A DNA stretch of 64,000 nucleotides, from contig WGLS01000024.1 of NCBI GenBank assembly GCA_016125455.1, positions 1-64,000 on the forward strand, written 5' to 3'. The notes below the pieces were generated by a model. It was not told the origin of the DNA. It was given only the letters and a program-made list of their open reading frames with translations, and did not search any database. Positions 47,662 to 55,047 of this stretch are shown piece by piece (positions within the stretch are counted from its first letter, which is position 1; every line of letters starts with the position of its first letter). Source of the DNA: Alphaproteobacteria bacterium (lineage in GTDB: Bacteria > Pseudomonadota > Alphaproteobacteria > Caulobacterales > Parvularculaceae). Position numbers and translations under genes: made by a program.

Positions 47662-47679
47662 TTGGCACGCTTGATGCAT
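47662..47679 (+). promoter_or_regulatory. Sigma-54 (RpoN) promoter
   Basis: TTGGCACGCTTGATGCAT: GG (47664-47665) and GC (47676-47677) are separated by exactly 10 bases, and TTGGCACG matches the -24 consensus fully, with ATGC for TTGC at -12. Transcription would begin near 47689, leaving a ~100-base leader before the repeat-protein gene. A sigma-54 activator gene lies at the other end of the locus. Confidence 0.8.
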
Positions 47680-47788: not shown

Positions 47789-49738
47789 GTGAAGAAACAA
47801 CTTCTCGCCTCAATCGCGGTCGGAGCCCTCATCGGCTTCGCCGGCGCCGCGCAAGCGCAGGACTTCCCGTCATCGAACGCCGACGACGGTTCCGCCGCCG
47901 AATCCGGCCCGGGTAATCTCAATCAGACGTCGAACCCCGGCAATGACGGGAATTCGAATAACGACAACAACAACAACGGCAACGGTTCCGGCAACGGCAA
48001 CGGCAACAACGCCAACGACGGAAACGACAACAACAACAACGGCAACAACGCCAACGACGGCAACGACAACAACACGTCGAACAATGGCGATGACGGTTCC
48101 AACAACGGAAACGGCAACGGCAATCTCGACCTCGACGCGGATGTCGATATCGGCGCAGGCGACGACAACAACACGTCGAACAATGGCGACGAGAACTTCA
48201 ACAATGGCGGCAATGGTTCCGGCAACGGCAACAACGCCAACGACGGCAACGACAACAACACGTCGAACAATGGCGATGACGGTTCCAACAACGGAAACGG
48301 CAACGGCAATTTCGACCTCGACGCGGATGTCGATATCGGCTCCGGCGACGACAACAACACGTCGAACAATGGCGACGAGAACTTCAACAATGGCGGCAAT
48401 GGTTCCGGCAACGGCAACAACGCCAATGACGGCAACGACAACAACACGTCTAACGACGGCGATGACGGCTCGAACAACGGCAACGGCGCAGGCAATGACG
48501 GCAACACCGTCGGCGGCGGCGACGATGGCTCGTACAACGGCGCGTCCTCGAACGACGGCAACGACGACAACATCAATGTCGACGCCGACGTCGATCTCTC
48601 GAACGATGGTGACGAGAACTTCAACAACGGCAACACGTCGAACAATGGCGATGACGGTTCCAACAACGGAAACGGCAACGGCACCAACGACGGCAACGAC
48701 AACAACACGTCGAACGATGGCGATGACGGTTCCAACAACGGGAACGGCAACGGCACCAATGACGGCAACGATGACAACATCACCGTCGACGCCGACGTGG
48801 ATGTCGGTGCTGGCGACGACAACAACACGTCGAATGACGGCGACGACGGGTCGTACAACGAAGGCGGCGATGACGGATCGTACAACGGCGCTTCGTCCCA
48901 GGACGGCGACGACGGGTCGTACAACGGCAACACGTCGAACGACGGCAACGATGACAACACGTCGAACGACGGCGACGACGACAACATCAATGTCGACGCC
49001 GACCTAGACATTTCCAACGATGGCGATGACGGTTCCAACAACGGAAACGGCAACGGCACCAACGACGGCGACGACAACAACACCAACGACTCGTTCAATG
49101 GTGGCAACACGTCGAACGACGGCGACGACGACAACACGTCGAACGACGGCGACGACGACAACATCAACGTCGACATCGACAATTCGGACAACAACGACGC
49201 CGACAATGGCTCGGCTGTCGCCAACGACAATGGCTCGGTTGCGGTCACCAACACGTCGGATGATGGCGATGACGGTTCCAACAACGGAAACGGCAACGGC
49301 ACCAACGACGGCAACGACAACAACACCTCGAACGATGGTGATGACGGGTCGTACAACGGCAACACGTCGAACGACGGCAACGACAACAACGTCAACACCA
49401 CGACCAACACGACCATCAACACGAACACGACGGTTGAGACGAACAACACGCTCACCATCGGCGACGTGAAGCTGAACGTGTCTAACCTTGCTTCGTCGGT
49501 GTCCGGCGTGTCGTTCAATGGCTCGGCCTCGGCCAACGCCACGGGCGGCTTCGGCGGCCCAGAGCTCGGCGCTGGTGATGCGACCGCTCGTAACAGCCAG
49601 ACCGTTACGACCGGCAACATCAACAACACGACGATCGACGGCAACCGTGGCGTGTTCAACAACACGTTCAACACGGGCGTTGCTAACGTCACGAACTCTC
49701 AGCAGTTCTCTGTCGACAGCAACCAGGTGCCTCAGTAA
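47789..49738 (+). CDS. Secreted Asn/Asp/Gly-rich repeat protein, putative amyloid/adhesin subunit
   Basis: GTG 47789 with GGAG 8 bases upstream starts a 649-residue protein with a clear signal peptide (MKKQLLASIAVGALIGFAGAAQA). Residues about 45-540 are built almost entirely of Asn, Asp, Gly, Ser and Thr in repeats of the DGNDNNTSNNGDDGSNNGNG type, interrupted at intervals by short alternating strands (LDLDADVDIG, INVDADVDLS, ITVDADVDVG, INVDADLDIS). The last ~110 residues (TLTIGDVKLNVSNLASSVSG...) are less repetitive, with NNT/NxF patterns. No Cys. The pattern of low-complexity repeats with periodic beta segments is like CsgA/FapC-type amyloids or Ca-binding adhesins. It heads the operon under the sigma-54 promoter. 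Confidence 0.75.
   Translation: MKKQLLASIAVGALIGFAGAAQAQDFPSSNADDGSAAESGPGNLNQTSNPGNDGNSNNDNNNNGNGSGNGNGNNANDGNDNNNNGNNANDGNDNNTSNNGDDGSNNGNGNGNLDLDADVDIGAGDDNNTSNNGDENFNNGGNGSGNGNNANDGNDNNTSNNGDDGSNNGNGNGNFDLDADVDIGSGDDNNTSNNGDENFNNGGNGSGNGNNANDGNDNNTSNDGDDGSNNGNGAGNDGNTVGGGDDGSYNGASSNDGNDDNINVDADVDLSNDGDENFNNGNTSNNGDDGSNNGNGNGTNDGNDNNTSNDGDDGSNNGNGNGTNDGNDDNITVDADVDVGAGDDNNTSNDGDDGSYNEGGDDGSYNGASSQDGDDGSYNGNTSNDGNDDNTSNDGDDDNINVDADLDISNDGDDGSNNGNGNGTNDGDDNNTNDSFNGGNTSNDGDDDNTSNDGDDDNINVDIDNSDNNDADNGSAVANDNGSVAVTNTSDDGDDGSNNGNGNGTNDGNDNNTSNDGDDGSYNGNTSNDGNDNNVNTTTNTTINTNTTVETNNTLTIGDVKLNVSNLASSVSGVSFNGSASANATGGFGGPELGAGDATARNSQTVTTGNINNTTIDGNRGVFNNTFNTGVANVTNSQQFSVDSNQVPQ
48071..48442. repeat. 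Two near-identical 186-bp tandem repeats within the repeat-protein gene
   Basis: Unit 1 (48071-48256) and unit 2 (48257-48442) differ at only a few bases; each encodes 62 residues including a DLDADVDIG strand segment. Recent duplication or ongoing homogenisation is implied. Shorter versions of the unit recur downstream in diverged form. Confidence 0.85.
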
Positions 49739-49898: not shown

Positions 49899-50363
49899 AT
49901 GCTAAAAGTCTTTCTTACTGCGTCGCCGTTCCTGGCGGCCTCCATCGCGACCGGGACGGGTGACGTCAATGTCGGCGCGGCGGATCCGTTTTCGCCCAAT
50001 GCGCCGGCCGCCATCGTGGCGAACGACGTGTTCTCCGGCGAAAGCCTGATGTCCGAAGATCAGATGCGCGACGCCGCTGGCGGCACCGACGCCGGCTTCG
50101 ACATGATCACCTTCACGACCAATGTTGACATCGACAACACGACGACCATTGACGATATCGGCGCGAACATCGCCGACAATGACGCGATCGTGCGGAATAT
50201 CGACGCTGGCGGATCGACGACCGGTCAGATCTCGACCATCAATGTCGAAAACAATCGCGGAATTACGACGATCCTGAACAACACGGGCAATGGCGTCGTC
50301 TTCCAGAGCAACGTACAATTGAACCTCTTCGTCAATCAGGGACCCGCGCCGGGTCAGCAGTGA
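49899..50363 (+). CDS. Small exported protein with double-glycine motif (putative minor subunit)
   Basis: A 154-residue protein with a hydrophobic N-terminus (MLKVFLTASPFLAASIATG). At residues 50-62 it carries LMSEDQMRDAAGG, close to the LSxxELxxIxGG cleavage motif of C39 peptidase substrates. The part after the GG is rich in Asn, Asp, Thr, Ile and Val (TTNVDIDNTTTIDDIG, NVENNRGITTILNNTGNGVV), reminiscent of the repeat protein's C-terminal region, and ends NLFVNQGPAPGQQ. It overlaps the peptidase gene by 4 bases (GTGA). No named family recognised. Confidence 0.7.
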   Translation: MLKVFLTASPFLAASIATGTGDVNVGAADPFSPNAPAAIVANDVFSGESLMSEDQMRDAAGGTDAGFDMITFTTNVDIDNTTTIDDIGANIADNDAIVRNIDAGGSTTGQISTINVENNRGITTILNNTGNGVVFQSNVQLNLFVNQGPAPGQQ

Positions 50364-51175
50364 ACCCTGCTTTCTGGCGCTGGACGCCCGCGATGAAAGG
50401 GGCGCGTTACGTGGCACTGCGAGGATCGCATCCTGCGAAAATCAGCCGGCGGCTGAAGGCCGTTGCGGCTGCGTGCCTTGTGGCGGCCGGGGTCGGCGCG
50501 CCGTCCGCGTCGGCGGAGCAGCTGCTCATCGCCACGGGGAACGTCAACGCCCAGATCGACATTGCCAGCCTCGCGAGCCTTCGCTACGCGACCGTTGTCC
50601 GCCAGCAGTATGATTTCAGTTGCGGATCGGCCGCCCTCGCCACCTTGCTCACCTATCACTATGGACGCGAGACGAGCGAGCAGGACGCCTTTACCGCGAT
50701 GTGGGAAATCGGCGACCAGGATCGGATCCGGCAGCTCGGATTCTCCCTGTTCGAAATGAAAGCCTATATCGAAAGCCTCGGGCTTCTGGCTGACGGCTTC
50801 AACCTGTCGCTCGACCGGGTGGCGGAGATCGGCGTGCCGGGCATCGCCCTCATAGATGACTCCGGGTACAAACATTTCGTCGTCATCAAGGGCGTGACCA
50901 AGCGGAACGTCCTTGTCGGCGATTCCGCCAAGGGCTTGCGGGTCGTGCCGCGCCAGCGCTTTGCGGACAAGTGGGACGGCACGATTTTCTTCATTCGCAG
51001 CGATCTCGAAACGGGCAAGGCGAACTTCAACAAGGCCGACGACTGGCGCTATGCGCCAGGCGCGCCATTCGATCGCGCCCGCGACAGCCTGGTCGGCCTT
51101 CAGGCCTCAACCTTGCAACAGACCCGGCCGTCCTGGTCCGGCTTTTCAGCGACGTCCCTGTTTGGTGAATTTTGA
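50360..51175 (+). CDS. C39-family cysteine peptidase (FapD-like)
   Basis: GTG 50360 overlaps the preceding stop; ATG 50393 is an alternative start. After a signal/anchor segment (about 33-52) comes a C39 papain-like domain: oxyanion Gln and nucleophile in RQQYDFSCGSAALATLLTYH (Gln82/83, Cys88), His172 in GYKHFVVIKGV, and Asp188 in VLVGDSAKG. No ABC transporter domains are fused, unlike bacteriocin exporters but as in FapD of the Pseudomonas Fap system. It sits between two small proteins bearing double-glycine motifs, its likely substrates. Periplasmic or membrane-associated activity is inferred. Confidence 0.85.
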   Translation: MNPAFWRWTPAMKGARYVALRGSHPAKISRRLKAVAAACLVAAGVGAPSASAEQLLIATGNVNAQIDIASLASLRYATVVRQQYDFSCGSAALATLLTYHYGRETSEQDAFTAMWEIGDQDRIRQLGFSLFEMKAYIESLGLLADGFNLSLDRVAEIGVPGIALIDDSGYKHFVVIKGVTKRNVLVGDSAKGLRVVPRQRFADKWDGTIFFIRSDLETGKANFNKADDWRYAPGAPFDRARDSLVGLQASTLQQTRPSWSGFSATSLFGEF

Positions 51176-51639
51176 TGTCGATGTTCAGTATCAGTTTTGT
51201 CGCGGCGATGATCAGCGTGCAGCCGACCGAGCACCGCTCCATCGCGCATGACCTGATCGAGGCGGACCCGTTCGCAATCTATATCGTCATGAGCGACGAT
51301 GAGCTGCGCGCCGCCCGGGGCGGTATGCTCGTTGGCAATGAGTATGTCGATATCGCCATTGGCGGATGGCTGCTCACAGTCGCCCGCGGCGCAACGGACA
51401 TTGTCGGCCACAGCCTGCCCAATGGCGTGGCGGGCGCGCCCGGCGACCAGCTGTTCGCCATGTCGACGAACGCAAGAGAGATCGTCATCAACAACATGTT
51501 GAACGGCGTGCACATTTCAGAAACGCGCAACTTCAACATCGTGATTAACAATCTCGATCAGGTGATGAATGACGGCGCTGCTGCGGGTGCGCTTGCCCGC
51601 GCCGCGAACGATGCGTTCATCCTGAACGGCCCGCGGTAA
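51175..51639 (+). CDS. Small exported protein with double-glycine motif (second, putative minor subunit)
   Basis: ATG 51175 overlaps the peptidase stop (TGATG). The 154-residue product has a short hydrophobic N-terminus (MSMFSISFVAAMISVQ) and, at residues 39-50, MSDDELRAARGG, which fits LSxxELxxIxGG very well. The downstream part has NAREIVINNMLNGVHI and RNFNIVINNLDQVMNDGA, Asn/Ile-rich stretches suggestive of beta strands. It parallels the 49899-50363 gene, and both flank the C39 peptidase gene. Family not recognised; FapE-like role is a guess. Confidence 0.68.
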   Translation: MSMFSISFVAAMISVQPTEHRSIAHDLIEADPFAIYIVMSDDELRAARGGMLVGNEYVDIAIGGWLLTVARGATDIVGHSLPNGVAGAPGDQLFAMSTNAREIVINNMLNGVHISETRNFNIVINNLDQVMNDGAAAGALARAANDAFILNGPR

Positions 51640-52085: not shown

Positions 52086-53819
52086 TTAATCGAACAACCG
52101 GCGTTGCAGGCGGACGGAAATGGTCATGTCCGGCGCTTCATCCGTCGCCCCGACGGACGTATTGACGTTCACGCGCGTTCTGTCGTCGATCAGGTACGAC
52201 CCGCCGAAAGCGAAGCCGCCGACATTCGCCGACGGCGTGCGTTCGATCGACGTGATGCTGTCCGTGGGATTGAAGAATTGCGATGTGGAGCGGCGGAAAA
52301 AGCTCTGGTTGTAGCCAAAGCTGAGGGAAAACCGGTCGTTTACGGACAAACCGACGCCGATGTTTGCAGTGAGCGCGTCGCCGGGATTGAAGTCCTGGAG
52401 AATGCGCGACCCGAGCTGGAGGTCCGGCGCGGTGGCTAGGTTCATCTGATAGCCGATATTTGCGAAGATGCTTGCCGGCGGCGTCGGCAGGATGAACGTC
52501 AGGCTTGGCTCGACGGTCCAGAATCCTGAACCGGTCGCAAGGTCCGCTTCGACGCCGCCTGGCGACCGGTCGAGGTCAAAGGGGCCGGTGCCGGTCGGCG
52601 CCTTGGCGCGGAGATTCAGGATCGTGTACGGAAATCTTCGGCCATCCGTCAGCTGGAACGAGGTGCCGAATTCCACGTCGCCGAAGCCCGAGCCATTCAA
52701 GTCGCGGGTCGTTTCCTCGCTTGCGCCGTCGCCAATCGCGATGCCCGCGACGCGTTCGTCCCTAAACACGTGCGAGACGCGGGCGTTCAGCTCGATGCGG
52801 CTCGTGAGGCCGTAACGCAGTCCGAGACGGTTGGTCACGGCCCGGCGATCCGTATCCGTTGCTTCGATCGCGCCGATCAGCAGGGCGTCGAGAATCTCCG
52901 TGCCCTGGAAGAAAAACCGGTTGTCGGACGTCGAGGTGAAGGAGGTCTCCGGCTCAAGATACATCGTCCCGGCCGGCGTAAGGATCCCGCCGACGTCCGA
53001 GAGAAGGGCGATTGACGGCCCGCGCTCGTTTTCCGGGCGCTGGCCGACTTCTTCCGGGAGGCCGCTGCCGCCCTGCTGGCCGGCCTGTTGGCCGCCGCTT
53101 TGAGCGCTGGCGTCGGCCGTGCGTTGCGGGCCGCCCTGCGCGGTTGCGGCGGCAACCTGCGTTGTCGCCCCGCCGGCGCCGGCGGCCGAGGCCGCGCGAG
53201 CGGGCGCGGTCTGGCCTGGTTGGCTGTCCGCGGCCCGCGCAAGCAGCGGCTGCGACGGCCGGTTCACCACGGGCATCTTGAGGATCTGGCCGACCTGAAG
53301 CAGGTCCGGTCGCCGGAGGTCATTCGCTTCAGCGATCTGCTGCGGGCTGACGCCAAACTTGTCGGCAATGCGGTAGAGATTATCGCCGCGCTGGACCCGG
53401 TATTCGTCCGTCGACAAAACGTCGGCCCGGGCGGAGGCGACGACCCGGTCGCCAAGGCGCGATTCCAGCTGTTCAATCAGCGAGGTCTGCCGGTCGATCA
53501 GGTCAGACTGGCGCGCGAGCACCTGTTCGGCTTCATCGAGGCGCAGCATTTGCTGTGCAAGCGACTGTCGAAGCGCTTCCAGTTCCGCCCGCAGCGCTTC
53601 GGCGCCCGCGGCTTCGTCACGTTCTTCCGCAGCGGCGGCGGCGGCATCGTCCGCCAGCGCCGGGGCCGCCGACAGGGCAAGCCAGAGGGGCGCCACGGCC
53701 GCCACAAGAAGGCTCGACCGACTGGCCCCGCCATACAATCCATTGCGGGGCGATCCGCCGTGCTGGAGCGACCCGCCACCCTGGCGCGACCTTGACGTCA
53801 CTGACGTTGTTTTCTGCAT
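52086..53819 (-). CDS. Outer-membrane beta-barrel protein with coiled coil and LysM (FapF-like)
   Basis: A 577-residue protein with four parts: signal peptide (about 35-57), a coiled coil (about 66-122; LRAELEALRQSLAQQMLRLD), a LysM domain (about 140-183; YRVQRGDNLYRIADKFGVSP...LQVGQILKMP), a Gln/Ala/Gly-rich linker (about 190-285) and a C-terminal barrel (about 290-577). The barrel starts LLSDVGGILTPAGTMYLEPE, followed by NRFFFQGTEILDALLIGAIE, which I recognise as the start of FapF-type barrels. FapF is a trimeric coiled-coil-gated channel exporting amyloid subunits in Pseudomonas. LysM suggests docking to peptidoglycan. It follows the sigma-54 activator gene by 61 bases. Confidence 0.75.
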   Translation of the reverse strand: MQKTTSVTSRSRQGGGSLQHGGSPRNGLYGGASRSSLLVAAVAPLWLALSAAPALADDAAAAAAEERDEAAGAEALRAELEALRQSLAQQMLRLDEAEQVLARQSDLIDRQTSLIEQLESRLGDRVVASARADVLSTDEYRVQRGDNLYRIADKFGVSPQQIAEANDLRRPDLLQVGQILKMPVVNRPSQPLLARAADSQPGQTAPARAASAAGAGGATTQVAAATAQGGPQRTADASAQSGGQQAGQQGGSGLPEEVGQRPENERGPSIALLSDVGGILTPAGTMYLEPETSFTSTSDNRFFFQGTEILDALLIGAIEATDTDRRAVTNRLGLRYGLTSRIELNARVSHVFRDERVAGIAIGDGASEETTRDLNGSGFGDVEFGTSFQLTDGRRFPYTILNLRAKAPTGTGPFDLDRSPGGVEADLATGSGFWTVEPSLTFILPTPPASIFANIGYQMNLATAPDLQLGSRILQDFNPGDALTANIGVGLSVNDRFSLSFGYNQSFFRRSTSQFFNPTDSITSIERTPSANVGGFAFGGSYLIDDRTRVNVNTSVGATDEAPDMTISVRLQRRLFD

Positions 53820-53880: not shown

Positions 53881-55047
53881 TCAGCCGCCGAGATAAATGT
53901 CGAGCGCCGCGCGCAATTTCGCGAGGTCGCTCTGGGAGTCGCCGAGATCGTTGCGGAACCCGTGCAGGGTCGTTCGGCTGACGCCGGTCAGCTGCGCCGC
54001 CTTGGAGACATTGCCGTTCGTCCGCCCGAGCGCCGCCGCCGTCAGATAGCGCACCATCGCCTGCTTGGCTGCCTCGATGTCGTACGAACCGCAAGTCGCC
54101 GGTTCGTCGAACACGATCGCGTCAGGCGTGACGTCCTTGCCGAGCGCGAGGATCATCGCCCGGGTCATGCAATTCTTCAGCTCACGGACGTTGCCTGGCC
54201 ACGCGTGCTGCTTCAGGAGGTCCGCAGCCGCGGGCGTCAGCTTGACCGACGCGCCCGTGCGCTCGCATCGCTTGGCGATGAAGTGTTCGGCAAGCTCAAC
54301 GATGTCGTCCCCCCGCTCGCGCAAGGGCGGCACGTTGATGTTGAGCACATTGATCCGGTAGTGGAGATCGCGACGAAACCTGCCGGCGTCGGCCTCGCTC
54401 GCAAGGTCCTTGTTCGTCGCGGAGATGATCCGCACGTCGACGCGCCGGGCGTCATTGCCGCCCACCGGAGTCACAAGCCCGTCTTCCAGCACCCGCAGGA
54501 AGTTCGCCTGAAGGTCGACTGGCATGTCGCCGATCTCGTCGAGGTGCAGCGTGCCGCCGTCCGCTTGCTCGAACAGGCCGATGCGGTCGCGCTCCGCGCC
54601 GGTGAACGCGCCGCGCACATGGCCAAAGAACTGCGAGCCCGTGAGTTCGCTGTCGACGCGGGCCGCGTTATGAACGACCAGTGGACCGTCGGCGCGTTCG
54701 CTGGCGGCATGCAGCCCTGCCGCGACGGCTTCCTTGCCGACGCCGGTTTCGCCGGTGATGAGCACAGAGTCGGGGTGCGGTCCGTAGGCGGAAATTAACT
54801 CGCGAACCTGGCGGATGGCGCGGCTGGAGCCGATGATCTCGGGCGGCTCTTGCCGCGCCGGCGATGTCGGACGCACGCGGGCTCGCCGCCGTGCGGTGGC
54901 GCCGTTGACCGTCTCGAGCCGGGTGACGACGCCATCATAGTTCGCGGACGTGCTGACGGAGAGCGAGGTCCCGTCGCTTTGCGATATACGGTCGTCGCCG
55001 CCCCTAAGCGAGGCGTTACTGGTATCGTCGCGCATTCTCTCCCCCAA
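53881..55047 (-). CDS. Sigma-54-dependent activator without receiver domain
   Basis: A 388-residue bEBP. The AAA+ domain (about 69-290) has Walker A GETGVGKE (99-106), the sigma-54 contact loop GAFTGA (146-151) and Walker [11 protein letters not shown], with R-finger-type segments after. A Fis-type HTH lies at about 335-375 ([20 protein letters not shown]). The N-terminal ~65 residues are Ser/Thr/Arg-rich, with no receiver, GAF or PAS domain, as in PspF-like activators. It likely drives the sigma-54 promoter at 47662 and maybe its own operon with the barrel gene. Confidence 0.9.

Follow-up and report, generated by a model that had tools for sequence, protein, structure and literature searches.

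Pseudomonas-type Fap systems combine a stand-alone C39 peptidase, FapD, with an export pore, FapF, and in the published text on them the FapD substitution C38A abolishes secretion of FapC (PMC5557850). The same text termed the target of FapD unclear in 2017 and gave FapE as the only protein of the operon with complete N-terminal processing by mass spectrometry, FapE peptides being absent up to about residue 70. Earlier papers already name FapE as a suspected substrate of FapD (PMC5557850, PMC12822426), a FapD cut of FapF at the junction of coiled coil and barrel was proposed earlier (PMC5557850), and a 2025 review gives FapE and FapF as presumed targets of processing by FapD (PMC12822426). For FapE and FapF, motifs of the GG and GA kind have also been noted in print, in supplementary figures. 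The published leader of the C39 peptidases of PCATs (peptidase-containing ABC transporters) follows the consensus L(-12)xxxE(-8)L(-7)xxxxG(-2)G(-1) (PMC6959990). In the open literature searched (PMC5557850, PMC6173800, PMC5135000, PMC12822426, PMC12392863, PMC3792158 and PMC3684753) we found no description of the leader that we report here for FapD-type loci.

Organization of the locus

The window, the whole stretch of 64,000 nucleotides that we analysed, holds what is most likely a FapD/FapF-type (functional-amyloid-like) export system, with the following features.

47789..49738, + strand: P0004, large N/D/G/S-rich repeat protein with a signal-like segment; no family match
49899..50363, + strand: P0001 (154 aa), predicted secreted protein of the companion family, candidate FapD substrate
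50049..50084, + strand: leader motif MSEDQMRDAAGG of P0001 (residues 51-62), kept in relatives
50360..51175, + strand: P0002, stand-alone FapD-like C39 cysteine peptidase with a signal-like hydrophobic segment; Cys88, His172, Asp188
51175..51639, + strand: P0003 (154 aa), FapE-like protein, candidate FapD substrate
51289..51324, + strand: leader motif MSDDELRAARGG of P0003 (residues 39-50)
52086..53819, - strand: P0005, FapF-like outer-membrane barrel with a LysM domain (NF058560 match)
53881..55047, - strand: P0006, sigma-54 activator

The locus resembles Pseudomonas-type Fap in its stand-alone C39 peptidase, its FapF-like pore and a FapE-like protein that adjoins the peptidase and carries the same leader motif. 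However, the scores of P0002 and P0005 fall well short of the FapD and FapF cut-offs, P0004 has no match in Pfam or NCBIfam, the FapB and FapC models included, the leader ends in RGG in the window and in RGR or RGK in Pseudomonas-type Fap, and the 19 loci L096-L114 (about 1.5 kb flanks) have no strict-motif companion upstream of FapD. PCAT1, LahT and ComA share with the window the C39 fold, the catalytic residues and the leader register at -12, -8, -7, -2 and -1, but the window-type peptidase is a free protein, predicted to be periplasmic, and FapD-type leaders follow a signal-like segment, have R at -3 in nearly all FapE-like rows and may have R or K at -1. Fil is a putative pilus system of Acinetobacter that includes FilB and FilC; likeness to it lies in two proteins, P0002 and P0005, which match FilB (NF050078) and FilC (NF050079), both below cut-off.

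The peptidase gene lies between the genes of the two small proteins and overlaps both, as an earlier note on this DNA had described: the stop of P0001 and the start of P0002 share GTGA, and the stop of P0002 and the start of P0003 share TGATG. A hydrophobic signal-like segment, from which alone signal peptides were called here in place of a predictor, precedes the leader in both P0001 and P0003, and that of P0003 has no basic residue ahead of it. Neither protein matches any family in Pfam or NCBIfam at E up to 1, and P0001 has a C-terminal NTGN-type stretch.

P0004 consists to 81% of N, S, G, D, T or Q, shows no leader motif match outside its own signal-like segment, and is presumed to be the main fibre subunit. 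Homology between its C-terminus and the P0001 family was considered and dropped, with an hhalign probability of 3.9%. Across loci L002-L081, an N/S/G/D/T/Q-rich ORF of at least 180 aa with a signal-like segment lies within 3.5 kb upstream of the peptidase in 47 of the 70 loci that have at least 2.5 kb of upstream sequence, and these ORFs likely encode the fibre protein.

P0006 is a possible regulator, judging by its position. Its gene adjoins that of the pore P0005, and in locus L139 an ORF that resembles a sigma-54 activator by eye also adjoins fap genes. A near match to a sigma-54-type promoter lies at 47663-47677 (+), 112 bases upstream of P0004; the window has 3 such -24/-12-like sites against 4.6 expected, a count not above chance, and we therefore make no promoter claim.

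The stand-alone peptidase

P0002 matches Peptidase C39 in Pfam (PF03412, 9e-21, 74.5 bits, above the gathering cut-off of 22). Its best NCBIfam model is FapD (NF058616, 5.3e-37, 127.3 bits), at a score short of the cut-off of 330 for FapD sensu stricto, and FilB (7.5e-30, 104.2 bits) also stays below its cut-off of 475. In alignment A3, which joins P0002 to 61 of the 115 peptidases of our locus set, the catalytic residues C88, H172 and D188 occur in 62/62 rows; Cys88, the residue that the earlier note would mutate, is thus Cys throughout, P0002 included. E107 is likewise kept in 62/62 rows and position 132 is acidic in every row, which makes both of them candidate partners of R(-3) in a leader.

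The AlphaFold model of P0002 averages a pLDDT of 84, with the core mostly above 90. Searched by VIA-align, it was most similar to substrate-bound PCAT1 (Z 17.4, 132 residues, 2.0 Å), ComA (Z 17.3) and leader-bound LahT (Z 16.6), followed by PeiR (Z 15.5), papain-like toxin domains (14.5 to 15.0), and staphopains and cathepsins (about 10 to 12). With PeiR and the papain-like toxin domains so near to the C39 domains in score, specificity is not settled by the fold alone, and the C39 fold predicted for P0002 is a sign of capacity, not of activity. The hydrophobic-knot residues A55 and I59 of PCAT1 map, by our own count through the alignment, to L130 and K134 of P0002; one of the two is hydrophobic, and no claim is made from it.

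Leader motifs of the flanking proteins

The motifs of P0001 and P0003 lie at the residues where the earlier note had placed them. It had also proposed a fit to the double-glycine leader of C39 peptidases, and this is borne out: the register is that of the published consensus, and both proteins have a hydrophobic residue at -12, L or M at -7, and G at -2 and -1, which we write as the generic motif [LIVMF]x4[LM]x4GG. A strict form was defined by R at -3. P0001 has A there, so that it departs from the strict form and conforms to the generic one. In the structure model of P0001 (pLDDT 60) the sole helix, predicted at low confidence, spans residues 53-59, directly before the GG. P0003 contains a second match, IGGWLLTVARGA at residues 62-73, judged to be incidental. 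P0001 and P0003 depart from the double-glycine leaders of C39 substrates in two ways: their leader is not N-terminal but follows a signal-like segment, and the peptidase is a stand-alone ORF rather than a domain of an ABC transporter.

Judged by profile comparison, the two proteins are probably distant cousins of one architecture. The P0001 family aligns to FapE-like proteins with an hhalign probability of 97.0, over 27 C-terminal columns, and to classic FapE with a probability of 91.7 (E 7.7e-7). The leader that they have in common is therefore not fully independent evidence.

Conservation across FapD-type loci

A single scan of GTDB genomes for relatives of P0002 yielded 525, the best 80 of which were kept, and the NCBIfam FapD model contributed 5 further stand-alone peptidase loci from 61 relatives and at least 30 from 398 Pseudomonadota genomes. 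The resulting set comprises 115 loci with FapD-like C39 peptidases, 113 of them distinct (L003/L082 and L010/L086 are duplicate pairs); it excludes L001 and L087, which are the window's own, and the eight loci L088-L095, where the match falls in long frames of transporter type (694-783 aa).

A flanking ORF with the strict or generic motif was found in 110/115 loci, and on both sides in 54, against a mean of 12.7 and a maximum of 24 loci in 200 shuffles of the neighbours; these counts are not blind, because the patterns were fixed after the nearest loci had been read and the motif seen in both of their neighbours, and the loci are related. The strict form occurs downstream in 85 of the 101 loci that have an ORF there (shuffles: mean 1.7, maximum 7) and upstream in 63/114 (mean 2.5, maximum 9), and the generic GG form in 54/101 downstream and 49/114 upstream (shuffle maximum 12 on either side). 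Per ORF, 148/461 neighbours carry the strict form against 11/916 distant ORFs (1.2%), and 105/461 the generic form against 23/916 (2.5%), the distant set being mechanical ORFs of related loci that lie over 3 kb away from the peptidase. The five loci without either form are L023, L072, L073, L115 and L122, where looser versions are visible by reading and were counted as misses.

We asked how far these figures leave room for a chance or low-complexity likeness in two small proteins. The generic form does turn up in those 23 distant ORFs, but at 2.5% of ORFs a match on both sides of a peptidase is unlikely to arise by chance, the motif is kept in relatives, and 110 loci stand against the shuffle maximum of 24. 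Coincidence is vanishingly improbable, and the motif pair beside the C39 peptidase is real.

The earlier note had named conservation of the GG in orthologues as the observation that would tell for or against its proposal. Among the nine closest loci (hand-chosen: L002-L006, L010 and L083-L085), eight have a motif-bearing ORF upstream, all ending in GG, and seven have one downstream, five ending in GG and two in GA. The exceptions are L085, whose upstream side lacks the motif, L003, which stops soon after the peptidase, and L084, where the downstream ORF is motif-free and only 83 aa long. Close relatives thus mostly keep the GG, and FapD-type systems in general share the motif. The sequences support the note's reading of the flanking proteins as candidate substrates of the peptidase, and the leader motif is probably a recognition code for FapD-type peptidases that reaches beyond the window locus.

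The motif tables omit 11 of the 95 picks upstream and 6 of the 90 downstream, which were spurious ORFs, chance hits or repeated loci. Alignment A1 joins P0001 to 45 of 84 companions and A2 joins P0003 to 42 of 84 FapE-like proteins. The A1 profile matches 6 of the 61 relatives, exactly the six genomes that encode a FapD-like peptidase as a stand-alone protein. The match is a companion adjoining the peptidase in five of them; in the sixth (G006) it is the FapE-like neighbour, and the upstream ORFs there carry neither the strict nor the generic motif. Neither P0002 nor the profiles A1 and A2 find a further copy in the genome of the window; all three match this locus only.

Residues at the end of the leader

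The consensus across FapD-type loci is hydrophobic(-12)-xxx-E(-8)-L(-7)-xxx-R(-3)-G/A(-2)-G/R/K(-1), in the same register as the PCAT leader. In the MAFFT alignment A2 of 43 FapE-like proteins, whose rows, like those of A1, were selected for carrying a motif, R48 is kept in 43/43, G49 in 42/43 (98%), L44 in 88%, G50 in 72% and E43 in 63%. E at -8, which played no part in picking the rows, is present in 53/84 FapE-like rows, and F or Y follows at +1 in 77/84. All 84 FapE-like rows have R at -3 and G or A at -2, within the limits that the picking pattern set on these two positions, and G, R, K or A at -1. A at -2 accounts for 10/84 FapE-like rows and 15/84 companions, and 35/84 companions have R or K at -1.

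The last residue divides the loci. Of the 20 loci L096-L115 (FapD 205 to 441 bits), 18 have a motif-bearing downstream ORF, with R or K last in 18/18; L113 has no downstream ORF called, and L115 has only the looser VDDDVLATQTGK, with T at -3. The remaining 66 FapE-like picks end in G or A. The earlier note had taken GG as the mark of the pattern, and this holds for close relatives, but classic FapE and 35/84 companions have R or K at -1, so that the best-kept core is R(-3) with a small residue at -2, and the GG is variable.

That R(-3) and the small -2 residue are the best-kept pair makes a cut one residue earlier than the note proposed a serious alternative. FapD would then cut after G(-2), in R-G|G/R/K, with R(-3) as P2 and the small residue as P1, consistent with R at -3 and G or A at -2 throughout the FapE-like rows, beside a variable -1. 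However, the described PCAT enzymes cut past the second glycine, with L at -7 (PMC6959990), the picking pattern restricted the positions concerned, and L115 has T at -3; we hold this variant tentatively, on the doubtful side of even.

The variable last residue also bears on whether FapD might bind the leader as a chaperone without cutting it, as C39-like domains do in some type 1 systems. Inactive C39-like domains are described (PMC5557850), and R or K at -1 would be unsuited to the narrow C39 cleft as published (PMC6959990). Against this, Cys, His and Asp are kept in 62/62 rows of A3, and FapD C38A loses secretion in the published work (PMC5557850); we consider a purely binding role highly unlikely.

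FapE in classic fap operons

We retrieved six fap operons and named their genes by NCBIfam, except for one FapA-position ORF, in L139 (ORF 1410-1754), which matches no NCBIfam family. FapD is above its own cut-off in four of the six, and 23 of the 24 FapA, FapB, FapC and FapF candidates match their own model (14 above cut-off). FapE carries the strict form in 6/6 operons, a few residues past the signal-like segment, as LKDAEMAELRGR, LKDSEMAELRGR, VPEHELAEMRGR, IPDPELNLMRGR, LKDQELATLRGR and LPDSVLSNIRGK, with R or K at -1. The strict form is absent from FapA, FapB, FapC, FapD and FapF of the same six operons. Generic GG or GA matches occur in L137, three in the FapA-position ORF and one in FapB (IDGNALSGANGA), and in FapB of L139 (LINNDLNNVHGA).

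Profile comparison links these proteins to the window. The FapE model (NF058559) is matched by 13 of the 43 FapE-like rows (best 8.3e-104) and not by P0003 itself, and the non-classic FapE-like proteins (A4) align to classic FapE (A5) with an hhalign probability of 95.3 and E of 2.4e-8, over only 39 columns that cover the leader and the early mature part. By this profile similarity, P0003 is a member of the FapE-like superfamily. The published FapE peptides do not single out the motif site, since the gap in them reaches beyond the motif.

The FapA-position ORF of L139 also has a looser leader-like stretch, ISDKNLQKVTGR, and may be a further substrate; this locus has an extra ORF between FapE and FapF.

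The FapF-like pore

P0005 matches FapF (NF058560; E 2.4e-34, 118.9 bits) below the cut-off of 700 and FilC (3.2e-14, 53.1 bits) below that of 630, and is presumed to be the exit pore. It bears no leader motif. Its LysM domain, at residues 140-183 ahead of the barrel, could tie the pore to peptidoglycan, and a coiled coil precedes the LysM domain by reading of the sequence.

We compared 73 FapF-like ORFs from 73 loci; in 52 of them the stretch from residue 20 to the barrel is 30 residues or longer. The motif lies ahead of the barrel in 27 of these 52 long proteins, that of L031 among them (500 shuffles: mean 0.61, maximum 4), and a few of the 27 (L073, L010) may be chance matches. The cut of FapF proposed in print is not backed by this motif, because classic FapF in the six operons lacks the strict form.

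These proteins also help to judge whether the motif might instead be a helix that docks on, or targets subunits to, the FapF pore or its coiled coil, with no peptidase site. The motif does sit near the subunit N-terminus, FapF is the export pore in the published account (PMC5557850), and positions that contact a partner would be conserved as well. However, the register is that of the C39 leader consensus, FapC and FapB are exported by FapF and lack the strict form in the six operons, and the motif's presence in FapF-like proteins themselves suits a common peptidase better than self-docking. We regard a docking role as unlikely.

Proposed maturation pathway

We consider it very likely that the FapE-like P0003 and its companion P0001 carry a Sec signal followed by a C39-type leader that P0002 cuts in the periplasm, and that classic FapE is marked by the same code. 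This scheme builds on what the sequences show: a motif that is conserved and linked to the peptidase, and the fold predicted for that enzyme. Sec would export P0001 and P0003 through the first, N-terminal signal. The second signal, hydrophobic(-12)xxxE(-8)L(-7)xxxR(-3)G(-2)G/R/K(-1), would follow the Sec signal peptide, and its helix would be bound by the groove of periplasmic P0002. Cutting at or beside the GG would free the mature subunit, which could then leave through the FapF-like pore P0005 and join a fibre probably made of P0004.

The linkage of motif and peptidase (110/115), the leader of FapE in 6/6 operons and the N-terminal processing published for FapE only agree with this pathway. 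Against it, the GG is not invariant, one peptidase must accept G, R and K at -1, the signal-like segment of P0003 lacks a preceding basic residue, and the FapA- and FapB-position ORFs of L137 have generic GG/GA matches. A broader proposal, evenly poised in our judgement, is that throughout FapD-type systems all FapD substrates bear a second, periplasmic leader code behind the Sec signal. These substrates would be FapE, its companion and, in certain lineages, the pore FapF, with the code placed between its coiled coil and its barrel; a single peptidase would then mature the minor subunits as well as reset the pore.

The motif names candidate FapD substrates and residues, with the new N-termini to be expected. 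With it, FapD-type systems and subunits that have escaped recognition can be found from their sequences. If the pathway is correct, the motif would explain the processing of FapE but not of FapB or FapC, and the logic of the double-glycine leader would have been carried from inner-membrane ABC transporters into the periplasm.

Among the surveyed genomes, one contig has two FapD-like matches of equal score 2.9 kb apart (G195:C11:1029331 and 1032195), perhaps a duplicated system. Loci L011 and L015, which are nearly alike in their motifs and in the lengths of their ORFs, come from bins assigned to Anaerolineae and Alphaproteobacteria, probably through a binning error.
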